Shown in pieces: positions 170-31,502 of a stretch of 34,809 nt of DNA. The notes under the pieces were generated by a model, which was given only the letters and a program-made list of their open reading frames with translations, was not told where the DNA came from and ran no database searches. Where the stretch lies: assembly GCA_028292245.1 (NCBI GenBank), contig JAQGMS010000077.1:1-34809 (forward strand), written 5' to 3'. Position 1 is the first letter of the stretch. Every line of letters starts with the position of its first letter. Source of the stretch: Ramlibacter sp. GTDB lineage: Bacteria > Pseudomonadota > Gammaproteobacteria > Burkholderiales > Burkholderiaceae_C. Both the position numbers and the translations under genes were made by a program.

Positions 170-196
170 GGGCAGGCAACAAGGAAGTACACGATC

Positions 197-955: not shown

Positions 956-980
956 AGCGCAGTTCCAGCCGGAGCCGGCC

Positions 981-5057: not shown

Positions 5058-5074
5058 GCGCAGACGTCCACACG

Positions 5075-9754: not shown

Positions 9755-9791
9755 GCGGTCTCCTTCGGGTGCGCCAGGCGCTGGAGGGCGG

Positions 9792-12120: not shown

Positions 12121-12449
12121 GTGCCTCCATAGGCGACGTTCACCACGCCGTCGACCACGGTCACCGGGTAGGTCTTGAGCGCAACGGAACACGGCGACGC
12201 GCAGGGCTCGCCGGTGGTCACGTCGAAGCAGCCGTTGTGCCAGCTGCACTCCACCACCTTGCCGCGCAGCGTGCCGTCTTCGGACAGCGAAGCCGCGCCG
12301 TGGGTGCAGGCGTCGTCCGTCGCGTAGATTTCGCCTTCGACCTTGTAGAGCGCGATCACCGTGCCGTCCGGCAGGAATTCAGCGCGCATCTCGCCCTCGG
12401 CGATGTCGCCGGCGTCGCACAGGGCCACTGTCTCTGCCATGGAATTCAT
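12117..12449 (-). CDS. Rieske-type [2Fe-2S] ferredoxin
   Basis: The 110-residue protein has the Rieske cluster motif C48-T-H50 and C68-S-W-H71, ligands for a [2Fe-2S] cluster. It would pass electrons from a reductase to the ring-hydroxylating dioxygenase encoded upstream. It resembles the small ferredoxins of biphenyl/naphthalene-type dioxygenases and NirD-like proteins. The ATG at 12449 gives an ATGA overlap with the SnoaL-like gene; an in-frame ATG at 12497 lies inside that gene and is less likely. No ferredoxin reductase gene is found in the window. Confidence 0.92.
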   Translation of the reverse strand: MNSMAETVALCDAGDIAEGEMRAEFLPDGTVIALYKVEGEIYATDDACTHGAASLSEDGTLRGKVVECSWHNGCFDVTTGEPCASPCSVALKTYPVTVVDGVVNVAYGGT

Positions 12450-12871
12450 GCGCGATAGGCGTCGGTCTGCAGCAGCTTGCTGCCGGCCCATCCCCAATAG
12501 ATTCGGTGGGCCTTGATCAGGCCGTTCTCGATCTGCATCACCTCGGCCATGTCGGTCTGGTCGCCGGCCGGCGTCAGCCGCGGGTATTCCCAGATCATCG
12601 TGCGCCCGTCCGTGAAGAAGCTCTGGCGGTAGCGGTCCTTCAGTGCCGGCGTAGTGCGGATGATGATGCCGAAGAAGTTGCGCAGGGCCTCGCGGCCCTC
12701 CACCACGCCGCGCTCGGTCTTGAGCAGCACGTTGACCAGCGGGCTTTCGAGCGTCGCGTCCGGCGCATACAGCGCGAGCACCGCTTCGAGGTCCTTGGTG
12801 GCGAAGGCGTGGGCCCAGGCCTGGTAGATGCGTTCCGCGGCTTCATGGCCGGAAGAAGGGTTCGAGTTCAT
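12446..12871 (-). CDS. SnoaL/NTF2-like protein
   Basis: The 141-residue protein has the NTF2-like cone fold pattern: an N-terminal helix ERIYQAWAHAFATKDLEAVLALYAPDA, a following beta strand with the E..PL turn, and a C-terminal antiparallel sheet with WEYPR and HRIYWGW. Members can be polyketide cyclases, isomerases, dehydratases or subunits of oxygenases. It is encoded between the dioxygenase block and the ferredoxin, so it may catalyse an isomerisation or dehydration in the same pathway. The catalytic residue is not clear from sequence alone. Confidence 0.82.
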   Translation of the reverse strand: MNSNPSSGHEAAERIYQAWAHAFATKDLEAVLALYAPDATLESPLVNVLLKTERGVVEGREALRNFFGIIIRTTPALKDRYRQSFFTDGRTMIWEYPRLTPAGDQTDMAEVMQIENGLIKAHRIYWGWAGSKLLQTDAYRA

Positions 12872-12914
12872 GTTGCTTTCGGATTGATGAAGGGAATGCG
12901 GCGCCGGCCTGGAC

Positions 12915-13541
12915 TCAGCGCCAGCGTGAAAACGCGGCGGGCAACATCAGCTGGCCTTCCAGCGCCGCGATGGCGCCGTCGTGCCGGATGTCGCTCAGCG
13001 CGCCGCTTGCGCCGGACCAGCGCTGGTCGCGCTCGTCCAGCGAAGCGCTGCGAACCACGAACAAGGCTTCGCGCAGCGAACCTGCGCCTTCGAAGGTACG
13101 CGCCTTCAGCTTGGCGACGATCTCGAAATGCCGTTCCAGCGCTGCGCCCAACTGGTCCGCCAGCCGCTCGGCCCCGGCTGCAAGCGGCGCCGCCCGCAAG
13201 ATGATGCGGTCGTAGACGCCGCCGGAGCGCGCCGGGTTGCCTTCGGCCAGATCGCCCGTCATCACCTGCGAATGCTGGTGTTCCAGCAACGGCGTCACCT
13301 TGGCGAAGAAGCGGCCCATCAGCGGGTTGGCGGCCAATTGGGCGCGGGCGGCGGCGCGCGCCTGGCGGCTTTCGTAGCGCCACAGGTGGTGTACCCGGTT
13401 GAGCTCCCCGCTTTCGCTGAACCAGAATCCGCGCAGGTGCGGGGCGAGCAGTTCCAGCACACCTTCGCCGGCGGCGAAGCCGGCCAGGTACTCGGGAAGC
13501 TTGCCAGGGTGCAGGCGATAGCTGCGCGATTCGATGATCAT
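12915..13541 (-). CDS. NIPSNAP-family protein
   Basis: The 208-residue protein begins MIIESRSYRLHPGKLPEY, the hallmark of NIPSNAP dimeric alpha-beta barrel proteins, and contains HHLWRYES and a second half-domain after residue 105 (YDRIILRAAP). NIPSNAP proteins frequently accompany aromatic or xenobiotic degradation genes, but their reaction is mostly unknown. The start overlaps the dioxygenase alpha-subunit stop by 4 bases (13538-13541). A 43-base gap separates it from the SnoaL-like gene. Confidence 0.85.
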   Translation of the reverse strand: MIIESRSYRLHPGKLPEYLAGFAAGEGVLELLAPHLRGFWFSESGELNRVHHLWRYESRQARAAARAQLAANPLMGRFFAKVTPLLEHQHSQVMTGDLAEGNPARSGGVYDRIILRAAPLAAGAERLADQLGAALERHFEIVAKLKARTFEGAGSLREALFVVRSASLDERDQRWSGASGALSDIRHDGAIAALEGQLMLPAAFSRWR

Positions 13542-14848
13542 TGGCGGGCGCCGGGCGGCGGCGGGTCGGCGGGGCCGGCGCGGCCGTCCATGCGCACGCC
13601 CCATTGCCTCCAGAAGGCGCGGATCTGGCCCTCGTCTTCCATCGGCAGCTCGGCGCTGTCGAGGGCGCCCTTGGAGACGTCGTTCCAGCCGGCCTCCTTG
13701 ATGTTGCGGTAGCCGCGCTGGCAGCGCTCCAGCGCCTCGATGTCGTCCGGGGTCGCCAGCCCGCCGGGGCCCAGGAATTCCAGGAAATTGCGCAGCCGGA
13801 TCTTGCGCAGCCAGGCGCTTTCGTCCTTCGGCGCAACGGCCCACGAGCTCACGCTCATCCGGCCGGGCTCGTCCGGGTACATGGTGCGGATCACCAGGCC
13901 GGCCGCATCCACGATCACCAGGTTCGGGAAGACCACCAGGTTGCGGTTCATGTGCGAGATCCGGCGTGCGCGCTCTTCGCCCAGGCGGGACTGCAGCTTG
14001 CCGTAGATGCCATCCATCTCCGCGCGCGACTGCTCGCCCCAGGCCGGCGACCACTTGCCGGCGGGCCGGCCCCAAGGCGCGGAAAACTCCACCACCGCAT
14101 GGCCGTTGCCGAGCTCGCGGCTGACGCCTTCGAGTTTCGGCGGCGGCCCGTTCTTCGGCGCGTTGGGCGTTACGTTGCGCACGTAATCGAAGTACGTGGC
14201 GTGCAGATTGTCGGCGTGGTAGCCGTCGAAGCTGTTTTCGCACAGCAGCTTCCAGTTGGCACGGATCATGTACTCCTGCGAGCCGGAAATGATTTCCAGT
14301 TCGTCTGCCTGGTCGGCCATGCAGTCGATGTACTCGCGTGCGCCGCCCAGGTAGTCGTGCAGCGAAACCGCGTCCTTGTCGAAGCACACGAACCACAGTC
14401 CGCGATAGGACTCCAGGCGCGGCACGGCCACCAGGTCCACGGCGCCCGTGCATTCGAAGTCCGCCGGGTATGCGGCGTGGTGCGGCTGGCGGCGGAACTT
14501 GCCGTCGGCGCTGAACACCCAGCCGTGGTAGATGCACTGGAAATTCTTGGCGATGCCCTGGCGCTCCTGGCACAGCTTGGCGCCGCGATGCGGGCAGCTG
14601 TCCAGGAAGGCGTGGACGACACCCTTGGCGTCGCGGTTGAAGATCACGTCGCGGCCGGCCACGGAACGCGCGACGAAGGCGCCCGGCGCGCGGACCTCCG
14701 ACTCGTGCCCCAGGTAGATCCAGCACCGGTCGAAAATCTCTTCACGCTCGGCTTGCAGGATGGCCTCGGAGGTGAAGGCTCGCCGCGCCACCTGGAACAC
14801 CCCGCGCCCGGCGTCGATGGCGATGTTGTTGCCGCCCATGTATTTCAT
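13538..14848 (-). CDS. Ring-hydroxylating dioxygenase, large (alpha) subunit
   Basis: The 436-residue protein is a Rieske non-haem iron oxygenase. The Rieske ligands are C85-P-H87 and C105-I-Y-H108. The mononuclear iron site reads NWKLLCENSFDGYHADNLH, giving N198, D208, H211 and H216, with a later acidic ligand expected in DDIEALERCQRGY. This is the catalytic alpha subunit that adds both atoms of O2 to an aromatic ring as a cis-diol. The beta subunit is encoded 15 bases upstream and a Rieske ferredoxin downstream, so a multicomponent enzyme is expected. The family includes benzoate, anthranilate, salicylate and biphenyl dioxygenases; the substrate cannot be fixed from sequence. Confidence 0.95.
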   Translation of the reverse strand: MKYMGGNNIAIDAGRGVFQVARRAFTSEAILQAEREEIFDRCWIYLGHESEVRAPGAFVARSVAGRDVIFNRDAKGVVHAFLDSCPHRGAKLCQERQGIAKNFQCIYHGWVFSADGKFRRQPHHAAYPADFECTGAVDLVAVPRLESYRGLWFVCFDKDAVSLHDYLGGAREYIDCMADQADELEIISGSQEYMIRANWKLLCENSFDGYHADNLHATYFDYVRNVTPNAPKNGPPPKLEGVSRELGNGHAVVEFSAPWGRPAGKWSPAWGEQSRAEMDGIYGKLQSRLGEERARRISHMNRNLVVFPNLVIVDAAGLVIRTMYPDEPGRMSVSSWAVAPKDESAWLRKIRLRNFLEFLGPGGLATPDDIEALERCQRGYRNIKEAGWNDVSKGALDSAELPMEDEGQIRAFWRQWGVRMDGRAGPADPPPPGARQ

Positions 14849-14863
14849 CGTCGTGTCCTTCGT

Positions 14864-15355
14864 TCACAGCAGGATGCTGATGCGCCCTTGCTCGTGCAGG
14901 TTGTCGTAGTCCAGCTTGCAGCGCTTCTCGCGGATGCGAAGGCCCTCACCCTCGCGCACCAGCCGGTACTGCGTGCTGCCGATGAAGGTGTCGTTGACGC
15001 CCGAGCGATGCCGGTGGGTCATGAAGACGCAGCGCGCCAGGATCTCACCGGGCTCGACGGCCGGCATCAGGCGCACATTGCTGATGAAGTGCCGGGTCTT
15101 GGAGTGCGGCCACTCGGCATGCGCGTTTCGCTTGTACAGGCGCTTGACGCGCTCGCGCAGCAGGACCGGGTCGTCAGCAATGTAGAACAGCGCGGTCTCG
15201 CTCGACGCGTCGTCGGGCAGGTCGGCCGAGGGAACCAGGTAGCGCCCGTCGGGCGTGAACAGCGCGAGCCATTCCTCGAGCTTCCAGGCGTCCAGCAGGT
15301 CCGCTTCCATGAACAGGAAATCTTCCACTTCCCGATGAATTGTCTCGTTTGTCAT
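14864..15355 (-). CDS. Ring-hydroxylating dioxygenase, small (beta) subunit
   Basis: The 163-residue protein has the beta-subunit fold (NTF2-like), with EVEDFLFMEADLLDAWKLEEWLALFTPDGRYLVPS near the N-terminus and HFISNVRL in the middle. The subunit supports the alpha3-beta3 hexamer and is not itself catalytic. I chose the ATG at 15355 because GGAG lies about seven bases upstream and the conserved N-terminus starts here; an upstream ATG at 15406 would lie in the promoter region. It is the first gene of the twelve-gene minus-strand operon. Confidence 0.92.
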   Translation of the reverse strand: MTNETIHREVEDFLFMEADLLDAWKLEEWLALFTPDGRYLVPSADLPDDASSETALFYIADDPVLLRERVKRLYKRNAHAEWPHSKTRHFISNVRLMPAVEPGEILARCVFMTHRHRSGVNDTFIGSTQYRLVREGEGLRIREKRCKLDYDNLHEQGRISILL

Positions 15356-15395
15356 TGCGCGCTCCGCTTCGAGCTCCAGAGGCTGGCCCAAGGGC

Positions 15396-15425
15396 AATGT
15401 ACCCATTAATTATGAGGCGTGTCAA
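15396..15425 (-). promoter_or_regulatory. Predicted promoter of the catabolic operon
   Basis: On the minus strand a perfect TTGACA box (15425-15420) is followed after 18 bases by TACATT (15401-15396), a 4/6 match to the -10 consensus. The predicted start of transcription is about 35 bases upstream of the beta-subunit ATG at 15355. The -35 box lies inside the inverted repeat. Confidence 0.5.
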
Positions 15426-15460
15426 TATGGGGCGGCCCCCTAATTGACATGCCAATTAAT
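15405..15460. promoter_or_regulatory. Divergent operator: inverted repeat with two outward TTGACA boxes
   Basis: The arms GGCGTGTCAAT (15416-15426) and ATTGACATGCC (15443-15453) are inverted copies with one mismatch, and each is flanked outside by ATTAATT/AATTAAT (15405-15411 and 15454-15460), with a 4-base offset on the left. Each arm contains a perfect TTGACA pointing away from the centre, so both divergent promoters are covered. The right arm alone also reads as an imperfect palindrome ATTGACATGCCAAT. A dimeric regulator, most simply the TetR protein encoded at 8186-8998, would repress both the catabolic operon and the transporter. Confidence 0.7.
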
Positions 15461-15520
15461 TTCGTGCTCAATTGCCGCCATCGCAGGCTTGGCTGCGGAG
15501 CATCAAGCTGGAGACAAACC

Positions 15521-16699
15521 GTGAAGAAAATCCTCATCCCTTCCCTGCTGGCGATCGCCGCATGGGGCGCCTGGACCCTCGCCGCCGCCCAGCCCCAGGA
15601 CAAGATTCGCATCGGCTTCATCGCGGCGATGAGCGGGCCGCTCAGTTCGGTGGGCGCCGAGCAGAAGCGCGGCCTCGACCTGGCGCTGGAGCACCTGGGC
15701 AACAAGGTCGGCGGCGTTCCTGTCGAGGTGGTGGCGGGCGATACCAAGACCAATCCCGGCGCCACTGTGCAGGACCTGTCGCGCCTGCTCGAAAAGGAGA
15801 AGGTGGACGTCGTCACCGGCCTCACGACGTCGGCGGAAATCCTGGCCGCGATCAAGCCGGTCACCGATGCCAGGACCATCCTCATCGGAACCAACGGCGG
15901 GCCGGTCCAGTTGTCGGGCGAGGGCTGCAGCCCCTGGTACTTCAGCGCGGCTTTCCAGAACACCCAGGTAACTGAAGGGGTGGGCGCCTTCATGTCGCAA
16001 AAGGGCGTGAAGAAGGTCTACATGCTGGGCCTGGACTACGAGGCCGGCCGCGAGCACCTGGCCGCGGCCAAGAAGGGCTTCAAGGGCGAAATCGTCGGCG
16101 AGAACTACACGCCCATGGCGCAGGCCGATTTCGCCGGCGACATCGCGCGGGTGCGGGCCTCGGGTGCGGACGCCGTCTTCGCGTTCTATGGCGGCGGCCC
16201 GGCCGTGTCGTTCGTGCGCCAGTGGGCGCAGGCGGGCATGGGCAAGCTGCCGCTGTATTCCAATTTCGCGCTGGCCGACCCGCTGACGCTGCCGGGCCAG
16301 GGCAAAGGCGCCAAAGGCATTTCCATCACCGGCATCTACTTCGCCGACCTGGACAACCCCGAGAACAAGCGATTCGTCGATGCCTTCCGCGCCAAGTACA
16401 GCCGCGACCCATCCGCTTACGCGGCCCAGCAATACGACGCCGTGATGCTGATCGACGCCGCCGCGCGCGAGCTCAAGGGCAACATCCGCAACCCGGACGC
16501 GTTCAGGGCAGCCCTGGCCAAAGCCAATTTCAAGAGCGTGCGGGGCCCCTTCAGGTTCAACAACAACCACATGCCGATCCAGAACACCTACATCGCCGAG
16601 ATCGACGAGCGGGCCGACGGCACGATGTACCTCAAGCCGGGCGGCATCGTCGCGGAAAACGCCAGGGACGAGTTCGCATCCAAATGCGCGATGAAGTGA
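15521..16699 (+). CDS. ABC transporter periplasmic substrate-binding protein (LivJ/LivK type)
   Basis: The 392-residue protein is a type I periplasmic binding protein of the branched-chain amino acid transporter family. A signal peptide is clear (VKKILIP start, hydrophobic core, AAAQ cleavage region around 20-24), followed by DKIRIGFIAAMSGPLSSVG typical of the family. The GTG at 15521 is chosen because GGAG lies seven bases upstream and it gives the signal peptide. Binding proteins of this family located next to degradation operons usually bind aromatic or aliphatic acids rather than leucine. Divergent transcription from the dioxygenase operon supports such a role. Confidence 0.92.
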   Translation: MKKILIPSLLAIAAWGAWTLAAAQPQDKIRIGFIAAMSGPLSSVGAEQKRGLDLALEHLGNKVGGVPVEVVAGDTKTNPGATVQDLSRLLEKEKVDVVTGLTTSAEILAAIKPVTDARTILIGTNGGPVQLSGEGCSPWYFSAAFQNTQVTEGVGAFMSQKGVKKVYMLGLDYEAGREHLAAAKKGFKGEIVGENYTPMAQADFAGDIARVRASGADAVFAFYGGGPAVSFVRQWAQAGMGKLPLYSNFALADPLTLPGQGKGAKGISITGIYFADLDNPENKRFVDAFRAKYSRDPSAYAAQQYDAVMLIDAAARELKGNIRNPDAFRAALAKANFKSVRGPFRFNNNHMPIQNTYIAEIDERADGTMYLKPGGIVAENARDEFASKCAMK

Positions 16700-16732
16700 A
16701 GCCGCGCCGGGCCACTGCGTGAGGGGCCCGGC

Positions 16733-17632
16733 TTGACCACCGCACTGCTGCTCGAGCAGGGCTTCAACGGGATCCAGTTCGGCCTGATTCTCTTCCTCAT
16801 GGCCGTGGGCGTGACGCTCGCCTTCGGGGTGATGAACGTGGTCAATCTCGCGCACGGCTCCATGCTGATGCTCGGCGCCTTCCTGATCGCGGCGGCAACT
16901 GCGCGCATACCGTCGTTCTTCCTTGCGCTCGTGGCGGCCATGGTGGTGCTGGCCGCCGTCGCGGCGGCGCTGGAACGCCTGGTCATGCGCCCGCTCTACC
17001 GCATGAGCCACCTCGACCAGGTGCTGGCCACGTTCGGCTTGTCCATCGCCTTCAACGAGGCCGTCATCATGGTCTGGGGACGCGAGCCCCTGTACGTCTC
17101 GCCCCCGGCCTGGCTCTCCGGCAGCGTGGCCCTCGCGCCCGGCCTCGACTATCCGGCGTGGCGGCTCGCTGTGACCGCGGTAGCCCTGGCCGCGGGCGCC
17201 GCGCTCTGGTGGGTCCTCGCGCGCACCCGGCTGGGCATGCAGATTCGCGCGGGCGCCGAGAAGCGCGACGTGATTGCCGGACTCGGCGTGAACATCCAGC
17301 TGCTGTTCAGCGCCGTGTTCGTCATCAGTGCCATGCTGGCCGCGCTGGCCGGCGTGATGATCGGGCCGTTGCTGTCGATCGAATCGGGCATGGGCGACCC
17401 GCTGCTGGTACTGACGCTGGCGGTGGTGGTGATCGGCGGGCTGGGTTCGCTGCGCGGTGCGCTCGTGGCGTCCCTGTTCATCGGCCTGCTCGACACCTAT
17501 GGGCGGATGTTCTGGCCCAAGCTGCTGGGTGAGGTGGCGGGCAACATCCTGGCCAACGCGGCGGTGTACCTGCTGATGGCGCTGGTGATCGGATGGCGGC
17601 CGACGGGCCTGTTTGGCCGCCATGTCCACTGA
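16733..17632 (+). CDS. Branched-chain-type ABC transporter permease (LivH)
   Basis: The 299-residue inner-membrane protein has multiple hydrophobic segments from LLLEQGFNGIQFGLILFLMAVGVTLAFG onward and the LivH marks GVMNVVNLAHGS and VIGGLGSLRGALVASLFIGLLDTYGR. A TTG start at 16733 with GAGGGG upstream is the only start that keeps the conserved N-terminus. It pairs with the LivM-type permease to form the membrane channel. The gene follows the binding protein after 33 bases and overlaps the next gene by 11 bases. Confidence 0.9.
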   Translation: MTTALLLEQGFNGIQFGLILFLMAVGVTLAFGVMNVVNLAHGSMLMLGAFLIAAATARIPSFFLALVAAMVVLAAVAAALERLVMRPLYRMSHLDQVLATFGLSIAFNEAVIMVWGREPLYVSPPAWLSGSVALAPGLDYPAWRLAVTAVALAAGAALWWVLARTRLGMQIRAGAEKRDVIAGLGVNIQLLFSAVFVISAMLAALAGVMIGPLLSIESGMGDPLLVLTLAVVVIGGLGSLRGALVASLFIGLLDTYGRMFWPKLLGEVAGNILANAAVYLLMALVIGWRPTGLFGRHVH

Positions 17633-18548
17633 GCGGTTTCGGCTCCATCATTTCGTGCTGCTCGCCTTGCTGGCGGCGGCCATTGTCGTGCCCCTGTTCG
17701 GCCAGCCCTATTACACCAAGCTGGTGGCGCGGATTGTGATCTTCGGCCTGGCGGCGATGAGCCTGGACCTGGTGGTGGGCTACGCGGGCCTGGTGAGCCT
17801 GGGCCATGCGGCGTACTTCGGGCTGGGGTGCTACGTGGCGGGCACGCTCCCGATGGCGGGCGTGCAAGGCGTCTTTCTCGTGCTGCCGCTCGCCGCTGTC
17901 GCCGCGGGGCTGCTGGGCCTCGTCACCGGCGCGGTGTCCCTGCGCGCGAGCGGCCTGTACTTCATCTTCATCACATTGGCGTTCGCGCAGATGGCCTACT
18001 ACGTTGCCGCCGGGATGCGTCCCCTGGGCGGCCTGGACGGATTTCGCCTGCCCGCCCCCACCTTGCTTCCGGGCGGCCTGGCATTGAACCAGCCGGCCGT
18101 GTTGCTCTGGTTCTGTCTCGCCCTGTTGCTGGCGGCCTTGTGGCTGGGAGACCGGATCGTGCGGTCTCCGTTCGGGCACGTGCTGCGCGCCGCCCGCGAC
18201 AATCGCCTGAAGCTGGCCGCGGTGGGCCTGCCGGCATACCCCGCCCAGTTGGCGATGTACGCGTTGTCGGCGGCCCTGGCGGGCATCGCGGGCGCCTGCT
18301 ACGCGAACCTGACTGAATTCGTCGCCCCCGCTTCGATGTCGGTGTTTGTCTCGGCCGAGTTCCTGTTCATGGTGATCCTCGGCGGCGCCGGCACGCTGGC
18401 CGGTCCGGTCATCGGCGCACTGGCCTTCGTGGTCCTGGAGCAGCTGCTGTCGGCCTGGAGCGAGCACTGGATGTTCTGGCTGGGCGTGCTGCTGGTGCTG
18501 CGCGTGCTCTTCCTGCATCGCGGCCTGTATGGAGTGATCCGGCGATGA
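17622..18548 (+). CDS. Branched-chain-type ABC transporter permease (LivM)
   Basis: The 308-residue protein is the second permease. It shows hydrophobic helices throughout, the family motif DLVVGYAGLVSLGHAAYFGLG near 45-65, and the loop GRDN-like RAARDNRLKLAAVGLPAYPAQL expected to contact the ATPases. The ATG at 17622 overlaps the livH-like stop; a TTG three codons upstream is a weaker alternative. Its stop overlaps the next ATG (ATGA, 18545-18548). Confidence 0.9.
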   Translation: MSTERFRLHHFVLLALLAAAIVVPLFGQPYYTKLVARIVIFGLAAMSLDLVVGYAGLVSLGHAAYFGLGCYVAGTLPMAGVQGVFLVLPLAAVAAGLLGLVTGAVSLRASGLYFIFITLAFAQMAYYVAAGMRPLGGLDGFRLPAPTLLPGGLALNQPAVLLWFCLALLLAALWLGDRIVRSPFGHVLRAARDNRLKLAAVGLPAYPAQLAMYALSAALAGIAGACYANLTEFVAPASMSVFVSAEFLFMVILGGAGTLAGPVIGALAFVVLEQLLSAWSEHWMFWLGVLLVLRVLFLHRGLYGVIRR

Positions 18549-19291
18549 GCACGCCACTGCTCCAGGTGCGCGGCCTGACCAAGCGGTTCGGCGCGCTCGT
18601 GGTCACCGACGATGTGCACCTCGAGGTGGCGGCGGGAGAAGTGCATGCGGTGATCGGCCCCAATGGCGCGGGCAAGTCCTGCCTGATCGGCCAGATCACC
18701 GGGGAACTGCTGCCGGACCAGGGCAGCGTCTCCTTCAACGGCGCGGCGCTGGACAAATTGCCCGTGCATCGCCGCGCCCAGGCGGGCCTGGTGCGGGCCT
18801 ACCAGGTGCCCCAGCTGTTTGCCTCGTTCACGGTGCGGGGCAACGCGTCGATCCCGGCCATTGCCGCCGAGCGCTGCGAATGGCGCTGGTGGCTTCCCGC
18901 CAGCGATGTAGAGGCTTTGAACAGGAGGTCCGGCGCGGCGTTGGAGATGATGGGTATCGAGCCCTTGGCCGAGCGCCCGAGCGCGGCGCTGGGTCACGGG
19001 GAGAAGCGCGAGCTCGAACTGGCGATGGGATTTGCAACGCAGGCGCAACTGCTGCTGCTCGATGAGCCCCTGGCCGGGCTGGGCCCGGGAGAAAGCGAGC
19101 GCCTGGTCAGGCTGCTGCGCACGCTCAAGGGCCGCTACGCGATGCTGCTGGTGGAGCATGACATGAAGGCGGTCTTCTCGTTGGCCGACCGGGTGTCGGT
19201 GCTGGTGGCCGGACGCATCATCGCGTCGGGCACGCCGGCGCAGATCCAGGGCGATCCGGCCGTGCGCACGGCTTATCTGGGGGGCGCCTGA
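18545..19291 (+). CDS. Branched-chain-type ABC transporter ATP-binding protein (LivG)
   Basis: The 248-residue ATPase has Walker A GPNGAGKS, a signature motif that reads LGHGEKRELELAMG (as in the LivG branch rather than LSGGQ), Walker B LLLLDEPLAGLG and the H-loop LLVEHDM. With LivF it powers import. The start is coupled to livM by a 4-base overlap, and the stop abuts the ATG of livF (TGAATG). Confidence 0.92.
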   Translation: MSTPLLQVRGLTKRFGALVVTDDVHLEVAAGEVHAVIGPNGAGKSCLIGQITGELLPDQGSVSFNGAALDKLPVHRRAQAGLVRAYQVPQLFASFTVRGNASIPAIAAERCEWRWWLPASDVEALNRRSGAALEMMGIEPLAERPSAALGHGEKRELELAMGFATQAQLLLLDEPLAGLGPGESERLVRLLRTLKGRYAMLLVEHDMKAVFSLADRVSVLVAGRIIASGTPAQIQGDPAVRTAYLGGA

Positions 19292-20035
19292 ATGGCGGCG
19301 CACGCGTTGAAGGTTGCGGGCCTGCACGCGGGATATGACAGCGCGCAAGTGCTGTTCGGGGTCGACTTGCAGGTGCGGCAGGGCGAAGGGCTGGCACTGC
19401 TGGGCCGCAACGGCATGGGTAAGAGCACCCTGATCAAGACCATCCTGGGCTTCACGCGGCTGGGGGCGGGGCGCATCGAGGTGGCGGGCATCGACGTGAC
19501 GGGCTGGCCGACGCATCGTGTCGCGCGGGCCGGCATCGGCTGGGTTCCCGAGGGCCGGCAGATCTTCGCGGGGCTGACGGTGCAGGAAAACCTGCTGGTG
19601 GCGGCCCGCAGGGGAGGGCATGGGACACAGTGGACGGTGGACCGGATCCACGGCCTGCTGCCGCGCCTGAAGGAAAGGCGGCGAAATTTCGGCAGCCAGC
19701 TTTCGGGCGGCGAGCAACAGATGCTGGCCATCGCGCGTGCCCTGCTGACGCAGCCGGCTCTCCTGGTGCTGGACGAAGCCACCGAGGGGCTGGCGCCGCT
19801 GATGCGCGCAGAAATATGGTCGATCCTGGAAACCGTCAAGCGCGAGGGCCAGTCGGTCCTGGTCGTCGACCGCGACCTGGAAGCCCTGGCGCGCGTATGC
19901 GACCGCTTCTCGATCCTCGAAAAGGGCCGAGTGGTCCGCGAAGGCGAGGCCCGGGAACTGAAGTCCGATCGACAGCGGATCGAAGACTTGCTCAGCGTTC
20001 CGGGTGTCGAGGTGGAGGACGGCGCGGCGCATTGA
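19292..20035 (+). CDS. Branched-chain-type ABC transporter ATP-binding protein (LivF)
   Basis: The 247-residue ATPase has Walker A GRNGMGKS, the LivF segment GIGWVPEGRQIFAGLTVQENL, signature LSGGEQQ and Walker B LLVLDEATEGLAP. Where the H-loop normally reads VEQ or VEH, this protein has VVDRDLEAL, as occurs in several LivF proteins. It is the last gene of the transporter operon. The stop codon lies three bases before the partial copy of the tRNA-Arg end at 20038. Confidence 0.92.
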   Translation: MAAHALKVAGLHAGYDSAQVLFGVDLQVRQGEGLALLGRNGMGKSTLIKTILGFTRLGAGRIEVAGIDVTGWPTHRVARAGIGWVPEGRQIFAGLTVQENLLVAARRGGHGTQWTVDRIHGLLPRLKERRRNFGSQLSGGEQQMLAIARALLTQPALLVLDEATEGLAPLMRAEIWSILETVKREGQSVLVVDRDLEALARVCDRFSILEKGRVVREGEARELKSDRQRIEDLLSVPGVEVEDGAAH

Positions 20036-20037
20036 TG

Positions 20038-20058
20038 ATGGTGCGGCTGGCGGGATCG
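20038..20058. repeat. Distal att-like direct repeat: copy of the tRNA-Arg 3' end
   Basis: This 21-base stretch repeats the last bases of the tRNA-Arg gene at 21579-21600 in the same orientation. The first 17 bases, ATGGTGCGGCTGGCGGG, are identical, and the last five also match after a one-base deletion of a G. Such a copy is what site-specific insertion at a tRNA 3' end leaves behind. It begins three bases after the livF stop and ends directly at the stop codon of the 404-residue gene. Confidence 0.8.
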
Positions 20059-21273
20059 CTAAGAAGCCATGGTGCTTTCAGTCCCAGACCCTGTTGAGGT
20101 GGAAACTACAGACACTGTGGAAGTCGATGAAAGCGTAGACGACGTTGAAGAGGCGATTGTCGTTCCTGTCGTCGTCAATGGTCCGGTCTCAGCCTTGGTC
20201 ATCGTGACGACCCCTTTGTTGATGTCTAGCGTACCGATCTCTTTCAGCTCCAAATTCACGAGCGTGAGCATTTCCTTACCGTCTTTCGCCGGGCACCCCA
20301 CGACGGGAAAAGCGCCCGCGTGCTCGCGGTACGCGACAACAACCTCGTTGTTCTCTCCTGACTTGTCGTCGACACCAATGACGCGGGTTTTGTAGGCCAG
20401 GGCGTTGGCGTGGCGCGTTGCCAAAATCGTCGGAGCGACTCCGCGAACGCTACCGACCATTGCTCTTCCGTACCGCAGGTGCGCCTTCCCATCACCCATC
20501 GGCACGTTCGCATAGCCAAGCTGCATGTCTGTAGAGGACCCGTATTTGACTCGGGTCATCCGTGCCCGAGATTGCTGGAAAGCTCCATACAAAGAAGATC
20601 CGCGCTTGGTCTTTGCCAGCAGGCTGAGTTCCTCGAAGGCTTGAAGGTCGGCTTCCAATGGCAGGGGCATGAAGAGCACTAGGCCTTCAGCCCTGGCAAA
20701 AAGTTGGGTCCAGATTGGCTTTGTCTTGGTAAGCAGGACGGCCGACAGATCGTGAAGCCCTTGCTCATTTTTGAGCTTGTTCAGGAAATTCTCGGCCTTC
20801 AGCCTGGCCTTGATCCCGTTCAAACTGACGTCGAGATTCACTTGGACCGTCGTGCTTGTCGACCCTGACGAAGTGGAGCTCGTGCTGGAGGGAAGAGGTT
20901 TGAGACTCGTTCCCATCGACAATGGCCGCGCCATGGGAAGCGGTCGATACCCTATCCCTGTAGAAATTGGCTTAGGTCCCACGATTAGGGGGCGAGCCGA
21001 GCTGGTCATGACTTTCGCCGGCGAGGGCATGAGGCCGGCTTTGGTTTCCTCGAAAGAGGGTCGCTGCGGAATTTCGAAGCGGACCATTGACGCGCCAGGA
21101 TTCACGAGTACACGTGCAGTCATCCGACCGTCGTCTAATGCGGCCTGAAAAGTGTCGGCGCGCTCCCAGTGCTTTAGCGCCGCATACCAATGGTCGTGCG
21201 CGATCAGGATCGACTCATCTGACGCATTCTTCCTGATGGCCTCCAGCAAGACCGCTCGCAGTGCTTCCAGCAT
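20059..21273 (-). CDS. Unrecognised 404-residue protein carried by the tRNA-Arg islet
   Basis: I do not recognise this protein. The start ATG at 21273 has GGAG six bases upstream. From the N-terminus one sees a helical segment (1-50), a short beta-like part (52-70), a proline/serine-rich linker (80-142) with a Ser/Thr run at 129-142, a folded region at about 143-355, and a Ser/Thr tail with almost no other residues (365-404). There is no signal peptide and no membrane segment. Part of the folded region (about 268-350, with VGSVRGVAP and AFPVVGCPAKDGKEMLTLVNLE) loosely resembles a GAF-type sensor domain; this is weak. The stop lies exactly at the distal att repeat. Single-gene cargo at a tRNA is often a defence or fitness gene, but nothing in the sequence proves that. 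Confidence 0.75.
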   Translation of the reverse strand: MLEALRAVLLEAIRKNASDESILIAHDHWYAALKHWERADTFQAALDDGRMTARVLVNPGASMVRFEIPQRPSFEETKAGLMPSPAKVMTSSARPLIVGPKPISTGIGYRPLPMARPLSMGTSLKPLPSSTSSTSSGSTSTTVQVNLDVSLNGIKARLKAENFLNKLKNEQGLHDLSAVLLTKTKPIWTQLFARAEGLVLFMPLPLEADLQAFEELSLLAKTKRGSSLYGAFQQSRARMTRVKYGSSTDMQLGYANVPMGDGKAHLRYGRAMVGSVRGVAPTILATRHANALAYKTRVIGVDDKSGENNEVVVAYREHAGAFPVVGCPAKDGKEMLTLVNLELKEIGTLDINKGVVTMTKAETGPLTTTGTTIASSTSSTLSSTSTVSVVSTSTGSGTESTMAS

Positions 21274-21579
21274 TTCTAACTCCCTGGGCGTTTGGCGATT
21301 CTTGGGCGCTTCTCGCGCGAGAACCTGCTCCGAACTTGCCTTTACCCAAACCCATGGTTGGGTAACACGGAACGTTTTACACGGGACTCGACTTTTCCAA
21401 GCGGGTCAGGTCGCCCGAGTCGGCATTTTTGCGCGTTTAAGTAGCGGATGAGGGACGCGGTTGGTGCGCGGCAGAGGGAACGGAGCCTCGGACTTTCAGT
21501 TTCCCGCGCGGGAAACTGGCGGAGGCGTAGCCGACCAGCGGGTTTCAAAGGTGCAATGCGTTGATCTGCAAAGCTAATA
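21274..21579. other. Gene-free leader of the islet with three palindromes
   Basis: I see no convincing gene in these about 300 bases between the islet gene and the tRNA. They contain a 14-base perfect palindrome TTCTCGCGCGAGAA (21310-21323), a hairpin with arms TTACCCAA (21342-21349) and TTGGGTAA (21358-21365), and a 22-base perfect palindrome with arm CAGTTTCCCGC (21497-21518). A weak promoter for the islet gene may be TTGGAA (21400-21395) with TAAAAC (21379-21374) on the minus strand, 15 bases apart. Confidence 0.55.
21497..21518. repeat. 22-base perfect palindrome in the islet leader
   Basis: The arm CAGTTTCCCGC is followed immediately by its exact reverse complement. There is no T-run on either side, so it is not a standard terminator. 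It may be a protein-binding site or a recombination site of the element. Confidence 0.6.
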
Positions 21580-21600
21580 TGGTGCGGCTGGCGGGGATCG
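21579..21600. repeat. Proximal att-like direct repeat at the tRNA-Arg 3' end
   Basis: This is the partner of the copy at 20038-20058 and covers the acceptor-stem and T-arm end of the tRNA gene. Seventeen bases match without change, and the five after the extra G also match. Confidence 0.8.
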
Positions 21601-21655
21601 AACCCACGACCCTTGGCTTCGGAGGCCAATACTCTATCCACTGAGCTACAGCCGC
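21580..21655 (-). tRNA. tRNA-Arg (anticodon CCG)
   Basis: The 76-base minus-strand gene folds as a cloverleaf: acceptor GCGGCTG pairs with CAGCCGC, D-arm AGCTCAGTGGATAGAG, anticodon stem TTGGC/GCCAA with anticodon CCG (21622-21620), T-arm GTGGGTTCGATCCCC, discriminator A and encoded CCA. It reads arginine CGG codons. A GATAAT box on the minus strand at 21682-21677 could be its -10. The 3' end is the insertion site of the neighbouring islet. Confidence 0.96.
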
Positions 21656-25190: not shown

Positions 25191-25640
25191 ATGCTGGTCA
25201 GCCAGAAACTCGCCATTGCCGCCCATCTCCACGTCCTGCTCAGGCGCAAGACCGGCCGTGTGACCGACACGGAATGGATGGCCGCCAATCTCGAATACGC
25301 GCTGGAGATCATCCGTTTCACGCGCGCGAAGGCGGCCGAGGACGGTCATCCGGACCTGGTTGAATGGGCCGACAAGCTGGAGCGGGCCGTGCTGGAACCC
25401 AGCCCGGTGCAGCGCACTCCGCTGGCGCAGACCGCCGTGCAACTGCTGCGCGAGCGCTCGCAGAACGCTCACGCCGCCGCGGCGCCGGCGCCGGCGCCGG
25501 TTGCCGACCCCAATTCCACCAGCGGCTTCGGCGCGTCGACCTTCAGCGATACGGGGTTCGCCGATTCGGTGCTGGAGCCGGGCAAGACGCCCAAGCCGCG
25601 CGACCCCAGCGTGCCGCGCTATGTCGGCGGCATCCGCTAA
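25191..25640 (+). CDS. Hypothetical protein downstream of amtB (149 residues)
   Basis: I do not recognise this protein. It has an excellent AAGGAG ribosome-binding site seven bases before the ATG and lies 36 bases after amtB, so it is probably co-transcribed with it. The N-terminal two thirds are helical (LVSQKLAIAAHLHVLLRRKTGRVTDTEWM and a following EYALEIIRFTRAK helix). A low-complexity Ala-Pro stretch and a C-terminal tail ending VPRYVGGIR follow. The protein is soluble. Its 3' end overlaps the convergent gene by 4 bases. Confidence 0.75.
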   Translation: MLVSQKLAIAAHLHVLLRRKTGRVTDTEWMAANLEYALEIIRFTRAKAAEDGHPDLVEWADKLERAVLEPSPVQRTPLAQTAVQLLRERSQNAHAAAAPAPAPVADPNSTSGFGASTFSDTGFADSVLEPGKTPKPRDPSVPRYVGGIR

Positions 25641-27277
25641 CCCGCGTTCGCGCGAGCAGCGTTCAGGATCCAGCCGGCGGCCTTTTCGGCCATCATCAAC
25701 GTCGGCGAATTCGTGTTGCCGCTGGTGATGGTCGGCATCGCGCCGGCGTCGACCACCCGCAGCCCGGCGATACCGCGCACCCGCAACTGCGAATCCAGCA
25801 CCGCCATCGCGTCGCCGTCAGCGCCCATCCGGGTGGTGCCGACCGGATGGAAGATGGTGGTGGCGATGTCGCCGGCCAGCCGCGCCAGCTCGTCGTCGCT
25901 CTCGTATTGCACGCCCGGCTTCCATTCCACCGGCTGGTACTTCGCGAGCGCCGGCTGCGCCACGATGCGGCGCGTCATCCGCAATGAATCAGCGGCCACC
26001 TTGCGGTCCTCGGGCGTGCTCAGGTAGTTCGGGGCGATCGCCGGCGCATCCTCGAACTTGTTGCTGCGGATGCGCACGCTGCCCCGGCTGGTGGGATTGA
26101 GGTTGCAGACGCTGGCGGTGAAGGCGTTGAAGTCGTGCAGCGGCTCGCCGAACGCATCCAGGCTGAGCGGCTGCACGTGGTATTCGATGTTCGGGTAGGG
26201 CATCTCCGGCGAGCTGCGCGTGAAGGCTCCGAGCTGCGAGGGCGCCATGCTCATCGGGCCACTGCGCTTGAACGCGTATTCGATGCCGATCTTCGCCTTG
26301 CCCCACCAGTTGCGAGTGAGTGTGTTCAGCGTGGCGACGCCATCGACCTTGAACACCGCGCGAACCTGCAAGTGGTCCTGCAGGTTCTCGCCCACCCCGG
26401 CAAGCTCGTGCAACAGCGGTATGCCGTGCTGCGCGAGCAACGCGCCCGGCCCGACGCCGGACAGCTGCAGGAGTTGCGGCGAGCCGATGCTGCCGGCGCT
26501 CAGGATCACCTCCGCGGTGGCCGTCACCGTCACCATTTCATGGCCGGTCCACACCTGCGCGCCGGTGCAGCGTTTGCCGCCGTCGGGCTGCTGCTCGATC
26601 ACCAGCCGGCTCGCGTGGGCCGAAGTCCACATCTCGAAGTTGGGACGCCCGTAACAGGTCGGGCGCAGGAAAGCCTTGGCCGTGTTCCAGCGCCACCCGT
26701 TCTTCTGGTTGACCTGGAAATAGCCCACGCCCTCGTTGTCGCCGCGGTTGAAGTCCTCGCTGTGGGGAATGCCGGCTTGCTGTGCGGCGCCGGCGAACGC
26801 ATCCAGGATGTCCCAGCGCAGGCGCTGGCGTTCCACCCGCCACTCGCCGCCCTGGCCGTGCATCGCATCGGCCCCCTTGTAGTAGTCCTCGTGCTTCTTG
26901 AACTGGGGCAGGCAGTTGTCCCAGGTCCAGTTGGCATCGCCGGTCGCGCGCGCCCAGCCGTCGTAGTCGCGCGCCTGGCCGCGCATATAGATCATGCCGT
27001 TGATGCTGGAACTTCCGCCCAGCGTCTTGCCGCGCGGATAGCGCAGCTGCCGCCCATTCAGGCCCGCATCGGGCTCGGTGTTGTAGAGCCAGTCGGTGCG
27101 GGCATTGCCGATGCAATACAGGTACCCCACCGGGATGTGGATCCAGTGGTAGTCGTCGCGCCGGCCCGCTTCCAGCAGCAACACCCGTTTCGAGGGATCG
27201 GCGGAAAGCCGGTTCGCCAGCAGGCAACCCGCCGTTCCCGCACCGATGATCACGTAGTCGAAAGTCGTGTCGCTCAT
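25637..27277 (-). CDS. GMC-family FAD oxidoreductase (choline dehydrogenase-like)
   Basis: The 546-residue flavoenzyme starts with the FAD-binding GAGTAG (12-17) and has LLLEAG, the GMC signature YPRGKTLGGSSSINGM, and the second signature GSIGSPQLLQLSGVG. The active-site pair is H477 (FHPVGTTRMG) and an asparagine in SGNTNSPT near 520. Such enzymes oxidise alcohols to aldehydes. The gene lies 10 bases after the aldehyde dehydrogenase gene in one operon, so an alcohol of the branched-chain or isoprenoid acid type is the likely substrate rather than choline itself. It ends 4 bases inside the convergent gene. Confidence 0.92.
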   Translation of the reverse strand: MSDTTFDYVIIGAGTAGCLLANRLSADPSKRVLLLEAGRRDDYHWIHIPVGYLYCIGNARTDWLYNTEPDAGLNGRQLRYPRGKTLGGSSSINGMIYMRGQARDYDGWARATGDANWTWDNCLPQFKKHEDYYKGADAMHGQGGEWRVERQRLRWDILDAFAGAAQQAGIPHSEDFNRGDNEGVGYFQVNQKNGWRWNTAKAFLRPTCYGRPNFEMWTSAHASRLVIEQQPDGGKRCTGAQVWTGHEMVTVTATAEVILSAGSIGSPQLLQLSGVGPGALLAQHGIPLLHELAGVGENLQDHLQVRAVFKVDGVATLNTLTRNWWGKAKIGIEYAFKRSGPMSMAPSQLGAFTRSSPEMPYPNIEYHVQPLSLDAFGEPLHDFNAFTASVCNLNPTSRGSVRIRSNKFEDAPAIAPNYLSTPEDRKVAADSLRMTRRIVAQPALAKYQPVEWKPGVQYESDDELARLAGDIATTIFHPVGTTRMGADGDAMAVLDSQLRVRGIAGLRVVDAGAMPTITSGNTNSPTLMMAEKAAGWILNAARANAG

Positions 27278-27287
27278 GCAGAGCGCA

Positions 27288-28829
27288 TCACTTCGACGTG
27301 GGCATCACGAACTCGGCGCCCTTGCCGATGCTCTCCGGCCAGCGCTGCATGATCGATTTCTGCTTGGTGTAGAAGCGCACGCCTTCCTCGCCATAGGCAT
27401 GCATGTCGCCGAACAGGCTCTTCTTCCAGCCGCCGAAGCCATGCCAGGCCATCGGCACCGGGATCGGCACGTTGATGCCCACCATCCCGACTTGCACACG
27501 CCGCGAGAATTCCCGCGCCACGTTGCCGTCGCGGGTGAAGCAGGACACGCCGTTGCCATACTCGTGCGAGTTGATCAGCTCGGTCGCCGCGGCCAGGTCC
27601 TTCACGCGCACGCAACCCAGCACCGGGCCGAAGATTTCTTCCTTGTAGATCTTCATGTCCGGCGTGACGTTGTCGAACAGCGTGCCGCCGATCCAGAAAC
27701 CGTTGTCGCAGCCGGCACCGGCTTTCGCCGCCTGGAACTTGCGGCCGTCCACCACCAGCTTGGCACCCTCGGTTTCGCCGTGGCCGATGTAGCCGGTGAT
27801 GCGGCTGGTCGCGGCGGCGCTGACGATCGGCCCCATCTCGGCGTCCAGCTCGGTGCCGTTCTTGATCTTCAGCGCCTTCGTGCGCTCGGTCAGCATCGGC
27901 ATGATCTTGTCGGCCGCGTCACCGACCAGCACGCCCAGCGAGATCGCCATGCAGCGCTCGCCGGCCGAGCCGAAGGCCGAGCCGATCAGCGCATCGACGG
28001 CCTGGTCCATGTCGGCGTCGGGCATCACGACCATGTGGTTCTTGGCGCCGCCCAGCGCCTGCACCCGCTTGCCGTGGCGCGCGCCGGTCTCGTAGATCTT
28101 CTGGGCGATTGCGGTGGAGCCGACGAACGAAATGGCCTTGACGTCCGGATGTTCCAGCAAGGCATCGACGGCGTCCTTGTCGCCCTGCACGACGTTGAAC
28201 ACACCGTCGGGCAAACCGGCCTCCTGCAGCAGCCGCGCCATCATCAGCGAGGCCGAAGGATCGAGCGGGCTGGGCTTGAGGATGAAGCTGTTGCCCGCGG
28301 CGATCGCCACCGGGTACATCCACATCGGCACCATCACCGGGAAGTTGAAGGGGGTGACGCCGGCCACCACGCCCAACGGCTGGCGCATCGTCCAGTTGTC
28401 GATGCCGGTGGAGACCTGGTCGGTGTACTGGCCCTTGAGCAATTGCGGGATGCCGCAGGCGAATTCGACGATGTCGATGCCGCGCGTCACTTCACCTTGC
28501 GCGTCGGTGAACACCTTGCCGTGCTCGGCGGTGATCGCATGGGCCAGTTCGTCGCGATGGCGATTGAGCAGTTCGAGGAACTTGAACATCACGCGCGCGC
28601 GCCGGATCGGCGGCATGTCGGCCCACGCGGGGAAGGCGGCTTGCGCGGACGCGACCGCGGCGCCGACTTCAGCACTGTTGGCCAGGGCGACCTGGCCCGT
28701 GACGGCGCCGGTCGCGGGGTTGAATACGTCGGCTCGCCGGCCGCTCTGGCCGGGAGCGATGCGCCCCCCGATCCAGTGTTCGATGGAAGCCGTCTTCGCG
28801 TTGGAAAGGGATTTGTCCGGGGCGTTCAT
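27288..28829 (-). CDS. mmsA: CoA-acylating methylmalonate-semialdehyde dehydrogenase
   Basis: The 513-residue protein converts methylmalonate semialdehyde (or malonate semialdehyde) to propionyl-CoA (or acetyl-CoA) using NAD and CoA, as in valine and thymine degradation. The [13 protein letters not shown] segment (159-171), the nucleotide-binding FVGSTAIA, and the active-site C293 in [11 protein letters not shown] are typical of MmsA; the RCMA context is specific to this branch of aldehyde dehydrogenases. The ATG at 28829 gives the conserved N-terminus; the frame is open further upstream but the sequence there does not look coding. It is third in the enoyl-CoA hydratase-AtuA-MmsA-GMC operon. 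Confidence 0.93.
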
Positions 28830-28912
28830 GGGAATGCTTTCATGGATGAGACATCGGCACGCGGAGGGCGCCGCGCGCCACCCTCCAGAATAGCGCTTTC
28901 CCGGCGCCGCGT

Positions 28913-30700
28913 TCAGCCTGTGGCCAGCCAGCCGGCGGGAACCCGCACCGGGATCGACAGCAGGATCTGCCCCATCCCTTTGCCGAGCGGGTCGTTGCGC
29001 AGTGACGCCATGCCGCCGCCATCGAGCGCCCGAGTACACAGGAAGTTCATCGCGTGGATGCCGGGAAGGTCGAAGCGCGTGACGGAGCCTTGCACGAGGT
29101 GCGCCAGCCATCCGGCCACCCGCTGTTCGGTGAGCTGTTCGCGCAGCAGCGGCAGCCATTCGGCCCGGCGCGCGATGACGCCGATGTTGGAGCTGTCGCC
29201 CTTGTCGCCGCTGCGCGCCCAGGCCACGCGGATCAGTGGCACCTCGACCATGGCCGTTTGGGGTGAATCTGTTGACCCTTCGACAGGCTCAGGGCGAACG
29301 GGGACAGGGACAGCCGCTTGGCCGGTGGGCACCGTCACCGGCAGCAACTGATCACCGATCACGACCTGCGGCGCAATGCGCTGCTTTTCCAGCAGGAACG
29401 CGAACTGCTTGATGGCGGGCGAAGGGCGCGGCCGGCCATCGGCTCCCGTGGTGCCCGGCGACCAGGACGTTCCGGCCGGTGCGATTTCGCGCGCGAACAG
29501 CTCCAGCGCCGCTTTTTGCGGATGCATCACGGCGACCCGCAGCACGGCTTCGCGCACGTCGGCCGTTCGCGCCTGCGGGCCGAAGTTGCCCTGCTCCGAT
29601 CCGAGCACCTCGATCAACGTGCGGCTGTAGCCGGCCAAGCCCTGCTGGCGGAACAATTCACCGGTCCGTTCCAGGATGGCCTCGCCGGTGCGCCGGGCCT
29701 TGCGCGCCGCGTCGATGCCGACGATGGTCAATTGGGCGCTGCAGCGAAAGCCATCCACATAAGTCGATGACACCTTGTAGCAAGGCCCCGGCGCCAGGCC
29801 TCGCGCGCCTTGCACCCGCACGCGGTGCTCGCCCAGCTGTTCGACGGTCACTGCGCTGAAGTCGCAGGTGACGTCGGGCAACAGGTAGCGCCGCGGATCG
29901 CCGATCTCATAGAGCATCTGCTCGGCGATGACGGCGGTGGAGACCAGGCCGCCAGTGCCCGGTGGCTTGGTGGCCACAAAGCTGCCGTCGGCATGGCATT
30001 CGATGACCGGATAGCCGATGTGCGCCCAGTCGGGCACGGCTTCCCAGTCGGTGTGCAGGCCACCGGTGGCCTGGCAGCCGCATTCGATGATGTGTCCGGC
30101 CAGGCTGCCCGCGGCCAGCCGGTCGTAGTCCCGCGCGTCCCAGCCGAATTCGTGCATCAGCGCGCCGAGCGTCACGGCGCTGTCGACGCAGCGGCCGGTC
30201 ACGACGATCTGTGCCCCGGCATCCAGTGCCTGCTTGACCGGCAAGGCGCCGAGGTAGGCGTTGGCGGTGAGCAGCCGGTCCGGCAGCGCCGCGCCGCTTT
30301 GCATCTCGGTGACGCCCTCTTCGCGCAGCCCGGGAACCAGCGGCATCACGTCGTCGCCCCGGACCACGGCGATCTTCACTCTCAAGCCCTGCTCGGCGGC
30401 GAGTGCGGAGATCGCTTGGGCGCAGGCCTGCGGGTTGACGCCGCCCGCGTTGCTGATCACGCGGATGCCCTGCGCAACGACCTCCTCCAGGATGGCCTTC
30501 ATCGTCACGCCGACGAAATCGGTGGCGTAACCCAGCGCGGGATCCTTGGCGCGGGCCGCCGCGAGGATCGACATCGTGAGTTCCGCCAGGTAGTCGAACA
30601 CCAGGTAATCGACGCCGCCCGATTTCACCAGTTGCGGTGCGCCCACGCTGCTGTCGCCCCAGAAGCCGGAGGCGCCACCGATGCGCACGACCTTGCTCAT
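28913..30700 (-). CDS. AtuA-like protein (DUF1446), acyl-CoA/terpenoid utilisation
   Basis: The 595-residue protein has the AtuA layout: an N-terminal DUF1446 domain ([33 protein letters not shown]) and a C-terminal ferredoxin-like AtuA domain with [17 protein letters not shown]. AtuA belongs to the citronellol/geraniol utilisation locus of Pseudomonas, but its reaction is not settled. The next gene encodes an enoyl-CoA hydratase, as in such loci. Between the two domains (about residues 464-478) sits a short proline-rich insert that is the translation of a dispersed palindromic DNA repeat (see the repeat at 29270-29306). A biotin-dependent carboxylase, part of classical atu loci, is not in the window. 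Confidence 0.88.
29270..29306. repeat. Dispersed REP-like repeat inserted in frame in the AtuA-like gene
   Basis: The core CCTTCGACAGGCTCAGGG is a well-known short palindromic-type repeat of proteobacterial genomes; read on the minus strand in this frame it gives RPEPVEG. The length keeps the reading frame open, and it lies in the linker between two domains. Confidence 0.75.
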
Positions 30701-30719
30701 GAGCCCCGGCTGTCCATGG

Positions 30720-31502
30720 CTAGTTGCCCTTCCACTGCGGCTTGCGCTTCTGCTGGAAGGCCTGCTGGCCTTCCTTGGCGTCTTCGGTGAGCGTGAAAAG
30801 CGCGATCTGGCTTTCGGTGAACGCGGCCGCTTCCTCGAAGCCCATGGCCTCGATCTTCTTCATGGTGTAGAGCCCGCGCCGGATGGCGGCGGGCGATTTG
30901 TCCAGCAGGCGCTGCAGCAACCAATCGAGCTTGGCATCGACATCGTCGTCGACATAGTTGACCAGCCCGTACTCGAGTGCCTGCGCCGCCGTGAGCGGCT
31001 CGCCTGTCAGGCACATCTCGGCCAATTTGCGCCGGGGCACGAGGTGCTGGAGCACCGAAAGGACCTGCGCGGGAAATACGCCAACCTTGACCTCGGGCAG
31101 GCCGAACACCGCATGGGAGGATGCCACCGCCATGTCGCACATCGCCAGCAGCCCCATCCCGCCGGCCATACAGGCGCCGTTGACGCGCGCGATCAGCGGC
31201 AGGGTGCTGGCTTTGGCGCGGCGCAGCAACAGCGCGAGGGGCGCATAGGGTTCTGAATAGTCGGTGGTGAAGGCGTTCGCCGACTGCAGGTCCGCGCCGG
31301 CACAAAACGCCTTGCTGCCGGCGCCGGTGACGACGATGGCGCGCAGCGAGCGGTCGGCCTGGGCCTCGTCCAGGGCACGCCCCATGCCCGCGAGCACGCC
31401 GTGGCTCATCGCGTTGCGGCGTTCTTCCCGCTGGATCGTCAGCCACAGCACGGCGCCGCGCCGTTCAACCAGCAGTTCCGGTGCGTTGGCGGTATCGCTC
31501 AT
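30720..31502 (-). CDS. Enoyl-CoA hydratase/isomerase family protein
   Basis: The 260-residue crotonase-fold protein has FCAGADLQSA with the first oxyanion-hole NH and NGACMAGGMGLLAMCDMAVA with the second. The position of one of the two catalytic glutamates is taken by E after FGLPEVKVGVFP, while the other usual glutamate position reads GG/MG, so the hydratase identity is less certain than the fold. It is the first gene of the operon that continues through the AtuA-like gene, mmsA and the GMC gene. AAGGAA lies upstream of the ATG. Confidence 0.9.
   Translation of the reverse strand: MSDTANAPELLVERRGAVLWLTIQREERRNAMSHGVLAGMGRALDEAQADRSLRAIVVTGAGSKAFCAGADLQSANAFTTDYSEPYAPLALLLRRAKASTLPLIARVNGACMAGGMGLLAMCDMAVASSHAVFGLPEVKVGVFPAQVLSVLQHLVPRRKLAEMCLTGEPLTAAQALEYGLVNYVDDDVDAKLDWLLQRLLDKSPAAIRRGLYTMKKIEAMGFEEAAAFTESQIALFTLTEDAKEGQQAFQQKRKPQWKGN

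Follow-up and report, generated by a model that had tools for sequence, protein, structure and literature searches.

A 1.5-kb integrase-less islet bracketed by repeats of the tRNA-Arg(CCG) end carries an orphan gene in Ramlibacter sp.

Cis-mobilizable elements (CIMEs), as defined in PMC5704250, are elements in which attL and attR have been kept and the genes for integration and transfer have been lost. Genomic islets, in PMC2704930, are discrete regions of less than 10 kb, and the hallmarks given there for genomic islands include a tRNA gene as insertion site and direct repeats 16-20 bp long.

The sequence analysed here, called the window, is a stretch of 34,809 nucleotides from Ramlibacter sp. 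that makes up the whole of contig C412 of a draft genome (5.81 Mb, 558 contigs, 85.6% complete). Next to its tRNA-Arg(CCG) gene lies a short islet (Table 1), which is probably a CIME-like genomic islet without integrase, derived from tRNA-directed recombination and carrying an orphan gene. By its size, its odd GC content, its position at a tRNA gene and its direct repeats in the range of 16-20 bp, it resembles a genomic islet, although genomic islets are detected by comparison of close strains and the present one was compared only with other species. As in a CIME, att-like repeats of a tRNA end bracket a region devoid of integrase and transfer genes. The islet is, however, very small for such an element (1.5 kb with one gene, CIMEs being usually larger than 1.5 kb), and its excision is putative.

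Table 1. Coordinates of the islet, its borders and its components in the window
Feature	Coordinates	Strand	Support
tRNA-Arg(CCG), intact, CCA encoded; presumed proximal attachment site	21580..21655	-	ARAGORN; Rfam RF00005, 69.8 bits
Proximal copy of the 17-base direct repeat (16 bases of the tRNA 3' end and one base outside it)	21579..21595		
Distal copy of the 17-base direct repeat, two bases past the livF stop	20038..20054		
Islet body, about 1.5 kb, 56.9% GC (GC measured on 20055-21579)	20055..21578		
Orphan gene P0001, 404 aa; Ser/Thr-rich at residues 128-145 and 358-404	20059..21273	-	no family match
Non-coding stretch from gene start to tRNA, about 300 bp; probable promoter and putative former att-arm region	21274..21578		
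Palindrome of 22 bases, perfect, CAGTTTCCCGCGCGGGAAACTG; might serve as an operator or as a recombinase-arm site	21497..21518		

An earlier note, made from the letters of this DNA, had described a 17-base identical repeat of the tRNA-Arg(CCG) end, and both copies of this repeat, ATGGTGCGGCTGGCGGG, were confirmed. Sixteen of these bases are tRNA sequence, from the CCA end through the acceptor stem to the start of the T arm, and the seventeenth lies outside the tRNA. Beyond the distal copy, the match to the tRNA resumes after a one-base gap (GGG vs. GGGG in the tRNA); this extension had also been noted, although it amounts to four further bases (ATCG) and not to five as claimed. The one-base difference in the distal copy hints that the islet is of some age. 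On the other side of that copy lies the livF stop codon (20033-20035), and livF and the islet gene thus both end at the repeat.

In the whole 5.81-Mb genome, the exact 16-base tRNA end occurs at two sites, which are the two islet borders. When one mismatch is allowed, nine further places are found genome-wide, including another tRNA-Arg-like end on contig C449; elsewhere in the window, a one-mismatch copy lies at 14478-14493. The 3' side of the tRNA was also scanned at 50 loci of relatives (690,266 bases, one strand), where two exact 16-mers, both in genome G081, and a single one-mismatch copy were found; two of these loci (L134 and L136) are anchored at partial tRNA copies and have indirect weight, and four (L040, L125, L128 and L137) are shorter than 300 bases each and have little weight. 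The repeat is more than chance. Its shortness and the one-mismatch copy within the window would suit a different origin without an attachment site, in which the 1.5 kb arrived by illegitimate recombination and the copy of the tRNA end arose by chance or from a small duplication. We hold this to be very unlikely, because the two exact 16-mers of the genome lie only 1.5 kb apart and coincide with a break in composition.

This break is pronounced. The lower GC content that had been claimed for the 1.5 kb between the repeats is borne out, with 56.9% against 67.2% for the window, and the islet value is below that of each of 1332 windows of 1525 bp from the same stretch. Neither the ORF list of the islet nor the family searches gave an integrase between the repeats, in agreement with the earlier note, and transfer genes are likewise absent. 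The islet contains only one gene-like ORF, which has no family match, and beside it a 125-aa antisense frame (ORF cut-off 120 aa). As for the stretch between gene and tRNA, no consensus sigma-70 promoter was found in it. In 8 of 50 relatives, a palindrome or stem-loop (arms of 9 bases or longer) is found no more than 400 bp away from the tRNA, so the palindrome at this place is not special in itself.

The only gene of the islet, P0001, had been presented as unrecognised, with its stop codon directly at the distal repeat. Four bases separate the two, and the 404-aa product has no family in any library searched: zero matches were obtained in Pfam, PHROGs, PADLOC, NCBIfam and PDB sequences. No known defence family in PADLOC or Pfam is matched by it, and the islet is not assigned to the anti-phage defence islets. 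Serine and threonine account for 13 of 18 residues at positions 128-145 and for 28 of 47 at positions 358-404. The GC content at third codon positions is 0.657, vs. 0.81-0.91 in six other genes of the window.

Searches at the genome level gave the same picture. Zero relatives were found with peptide patterns in genome and viral contigs, or in 60 other genomes (36 of the same genus and 24 of the same order); phages and plasmids gave no convincing match, with one plasmid hit at E = 4. Among 399 genomes of the order, only the genome of the window gave a convincing match, with weak matches in 18 others. With residues 145-352, the own genome was again the only convincing match in 399 genomes of the family (weak in 4 others) and in 369 genomes of the class (weak in 1 other), while 58 other genomes of the genus gave zero matches, not even weak ones. 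Eight of the 20 rows of weak order-level matches were examined (L089-L092, L094, L096, L102 and L105). In three of them (L089, L091 and L094), rejected as relatives, the 44-50 matching residues lie, as judged by eye, inside TPR-like ORFs. Five weak rows from the family and class searches, including L160, were judged to be chance. Of the minus-strand matches L092, L094, L102, L160 and L164, three (L094, L102 and L160) were read on the proper strand.

Such a lack of relatives in every library searched, together with a single-sequence AlphaFold model that is unusable (mean pLDDT 33.4, computed without alignment), is what would be expected if the ORF were not a gene and the islet consisted of non-coding debris. 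This is extremely unlikely: the longest ATG-initiated ORF in 500 dinucleotide shuffles reaches 311 aa vs. the 404 aa of P0001, the GC contents at the three codon positions (0.56/0.49/0.66) are those of coding DNA, and a GGGAG motif, read by eye, precedes the ATG. P0001 is a candidate gene for some accessory role that is as yet undescribed. That it could be an accessory protein of host-phage conflict is a guess, made with low confidence.

A tRNA-cytochrome c query matched 60 of 60 genomes of the genus, that of the window included; among these genomes, the tRNA is not always complete in the assembly or adjoining the cytochrome gene. The loci of 20 relatives, up to 12 kb each, were fetched. In G033, the counterpart of window 8-6181 (77% identity), with its type VI secretion genes, ends 26 bp from the tRNA, and about 15.4 kb present at the tRNA in the window, i.e. 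a 13.9-kb block plus the islet, is absent. The 13.9-kb block (window 6182-20036), which separates the type VI secretion genes from the repeat, carries genes for a Rieske oxygenase, a TetR-type regulator and liv transport. No copy of the tRNA end was found at its far end, near 6182. When its part 6182-13500 was compared with 58 other genomes at E 1e-100, it matched only G020 and G031, partly and on other contigs. Rieske-type genes also occur in G002, at 11.5-13.2 kb from the tRNA and with 45-50% identity. Elsewhere in the window (25637-31499), Pfam identifies GMC oxidoreductase, aldehyde dehydrogenase, AtuA-family and enoyl-CoA hydratase genes, which perhaps form a degradation cluster of the acyclic-terpene type.

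A parallel to the window is found in G034 (L034 7012-11485), where a substrate-binding protein gene and four liv genes stand at the tRNA in the same order and orientation. There, the stop codon of the livF-like gene is 579 bp from the tRNA, vs. 2 bases between livF and the repeat in the window. The five proteins of this liv operon are 33-53% identical to those of the window (livF 53%, livG 49%), and the 11 best-matching liv loci elsewhere in the genus reach 46-51% for livF and 45-48% for livG. Judging from these sequences, the G034 operon may be a distant counterpart of that of the window; a separate acquisition is as possible, since the protein identities are low compared with the 78% DNA identity of the cytochrome gene next to the tRNA. 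Genes of these five kinds are also found in G063, about 4.9 kb from the tRNA.

In G034, the islet gene is absent, and so is the tRNA-end repeat within 12 kb. The 579-bp spacer does not resemble the islet beyond chance: its score was reached by 162 of 500 shuffles. Since operon and spacer are too different, G034 is an islet-free parallel and does not provide a clean empty site; the empty site with one repeat copy that the earlier note had proposed to look for was not met with in a clean form. Further out from the tRNA, no exact copy of its end was found in 40 kb of G025 or in 20 kb of G081 and G034, where one one-mismatch copy, in G034, was seen. At E 1e-8, no counterpart of the islet gene was seen in any of the 49 loci of relatives longer than 50 bases, of which 43 extend over at least 5 kb. 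The opposite outcome, namely that most relatives would have the gene at this place, had been named as a refutation; it did not occur, the gene being absent from all the relatives searched. The 3' side of tRNA-Arg(CCG) is variable in the genus.

Other insertions exist at this same tRNA. G081 (L043 4680-12072) contains two tandem integrase-less stretches of 6.9 kb and 0.5 kb at its tRNA-Arg(CCG), with copies of the tRNA end 6885 and 7392 bases away (16/16 in both, 22/24 and 21/24 over the longer match). The 6.9-kb stretch includes a gene with an AbiJ N-terminal domain (AbiJ_NTD4; 5654-6700, minus strand) and several ORFs without Pfam family; no integrase was found with Pfam among nine ORFs of G081, and the three integrase-family matches of this genome are all far from the tRNA locus. 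The proximal and middle flanks are related (90% over 72 nt, 84% over about 90 nt). Part of tRNA-Arg(CCG) is also copied in G018 (C224 59902-59955, L134; 45 nt), where the contig has four integrase-family matches, and in G076 (C141 12959-13007, L165; 49 nt). Both copies are probable far ends of larger integrated elements. In G072, the contig ends inside the tRNA after 50 nt. Two candidates were set aside: a 42-nt tRNA copy in G032, which is an inverted repeat near a contig end and looks like an assembly artefact, and G025, where the 30 bases beside the tRNA that are common to G081 may be the native tRNA trailer.

The islet thus has in common with the insertions of G018, G076 and G081 the tRNA-Arg(CCG) target and a partial tRNA copy, although no sequence common to the islet was found in any of the three. 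Its repeat (17 bases, 21 with the gap) is short compared with the 45 and 49 nt of G018 and G076, which speaks against the reading preferred here, as do the failure to find a clean empty site or an integrase of matching specificity and the draft state of the genome. Nevertheless, tRNA-Arg(CCG) is a recurrent insertion target in the genus. Alternative cargo between tRNA-end repeats, which the earlier note had suggested looking for, does exist in G081. As to its remark that such places are hot spots for defence or fitness genes, the variable site with another cargo is upheld and the defence cargo is not: since the islet gene matches no defence family, the suggestion of defence comes only from the AbiJ-domain gene of G081.

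The islet DNA itself was searched for in 399 genomes of the family, in phages and in plasmids, and no sister islet was recognised. Thirty-one other genomes of the family match it over some 22-56 bases, at E 2.4e-6 or weaker, and these matches were taken for chance (ORFs were listed for one of them, L066). Nor was a parent ICE or IME, or a related element, found in these collections or, through the palindrome, in viral and genome contigs.

The compact ends of the islet, with four bases between the P0001 stop and the distal repeat, and the two G081 stretches with their related flanks, as if they had one recombinase in common, raise the possibility that a non-autonomous islet integrated as it is, with another element providing the integrase in trans and the palindrome-bearing stretch by the tRNA being the recognition region. 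The nine integrase-family matches in the genome of the window (G000) also speak for this. We consider it unlikely, because the collections just named did not yield any recognisable sister islet of the same DNA, the inner 20 bases of the palindrome have zero exact matches in viral_contigs or genome_contigs, and no tRNA-Arg(CCG) is found beside the integrase matches in the eight loci of about 3.5 kb, out of nine, that were scanned. The resemblance between the islet flank and the G077 flank, equalled in 4 of 2000 shuffles and the best of 46 relatives compared, is weak and not convincing.

The earlier proposal to look for an integrase that uses this tRNA led to none that could be pinned down beside it. 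A strict active-site motif scan of 20 relatives' loci, which is weak evidence, found none. The recombinase at the start of the G018 contig was rejected as the integrase of this tRNA, since its family also occurs on stretches in which no tRNA was found (G000, G034 and G072) and its motif looks like that of integron integrases. The members of this tyrosine recombinase family, 65-76% identical, are on G000:C260 (L152), G018:C224 (L151), G034:C45 (L153) and G072:C140 (L154). They may be integron integrases.

We infer site-specific recombination as the origin of the islet. Under the preferred reading, an element with a tyrosine recombinase would once have entered tRNA-Arg(CCG) at its 3' end. This would have restored the end of the tRNA and left a second copy of it at the distal border, and the integrase would then have been lost by trimming. 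The remnant, 1.5 kb long, would comprise a single accessory gene, whose family is undescribed, and the upstream region of that gene, about 300 bp. Without a recombinase of its own, such an islet could leave only if one of matching specificity acted in trans. The earlier note had left the choice between mobilisation in trans and trimming; the foreign-looking, repeat-bracketed, integrase-less islet at a variable site stands, and the two routes are inseparable with these data, trimming being in our judgement the more likely.

A bolder and quite unlikely reading is that the 1.5 kb are a complete non-autonomous mobile unit, made of one gene of an entirely new protein family and a short palindrome-bearing recognition region and moved in trans into tRNA-Arg(CCG). 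This tRNA would then be a hot spot that further integrase-less stretches, including the one with an AbiJ-domain gene, have settled as well. As it stands, the islet adds a very small example to the integrase-less tRNA islets, a kind already described, and marks tRNA-Arg(CCG) as a repeated insertion site in the genus. Should other species hold different single-gene cargos here, this would be a simple place to seek new defence or fitness genes.
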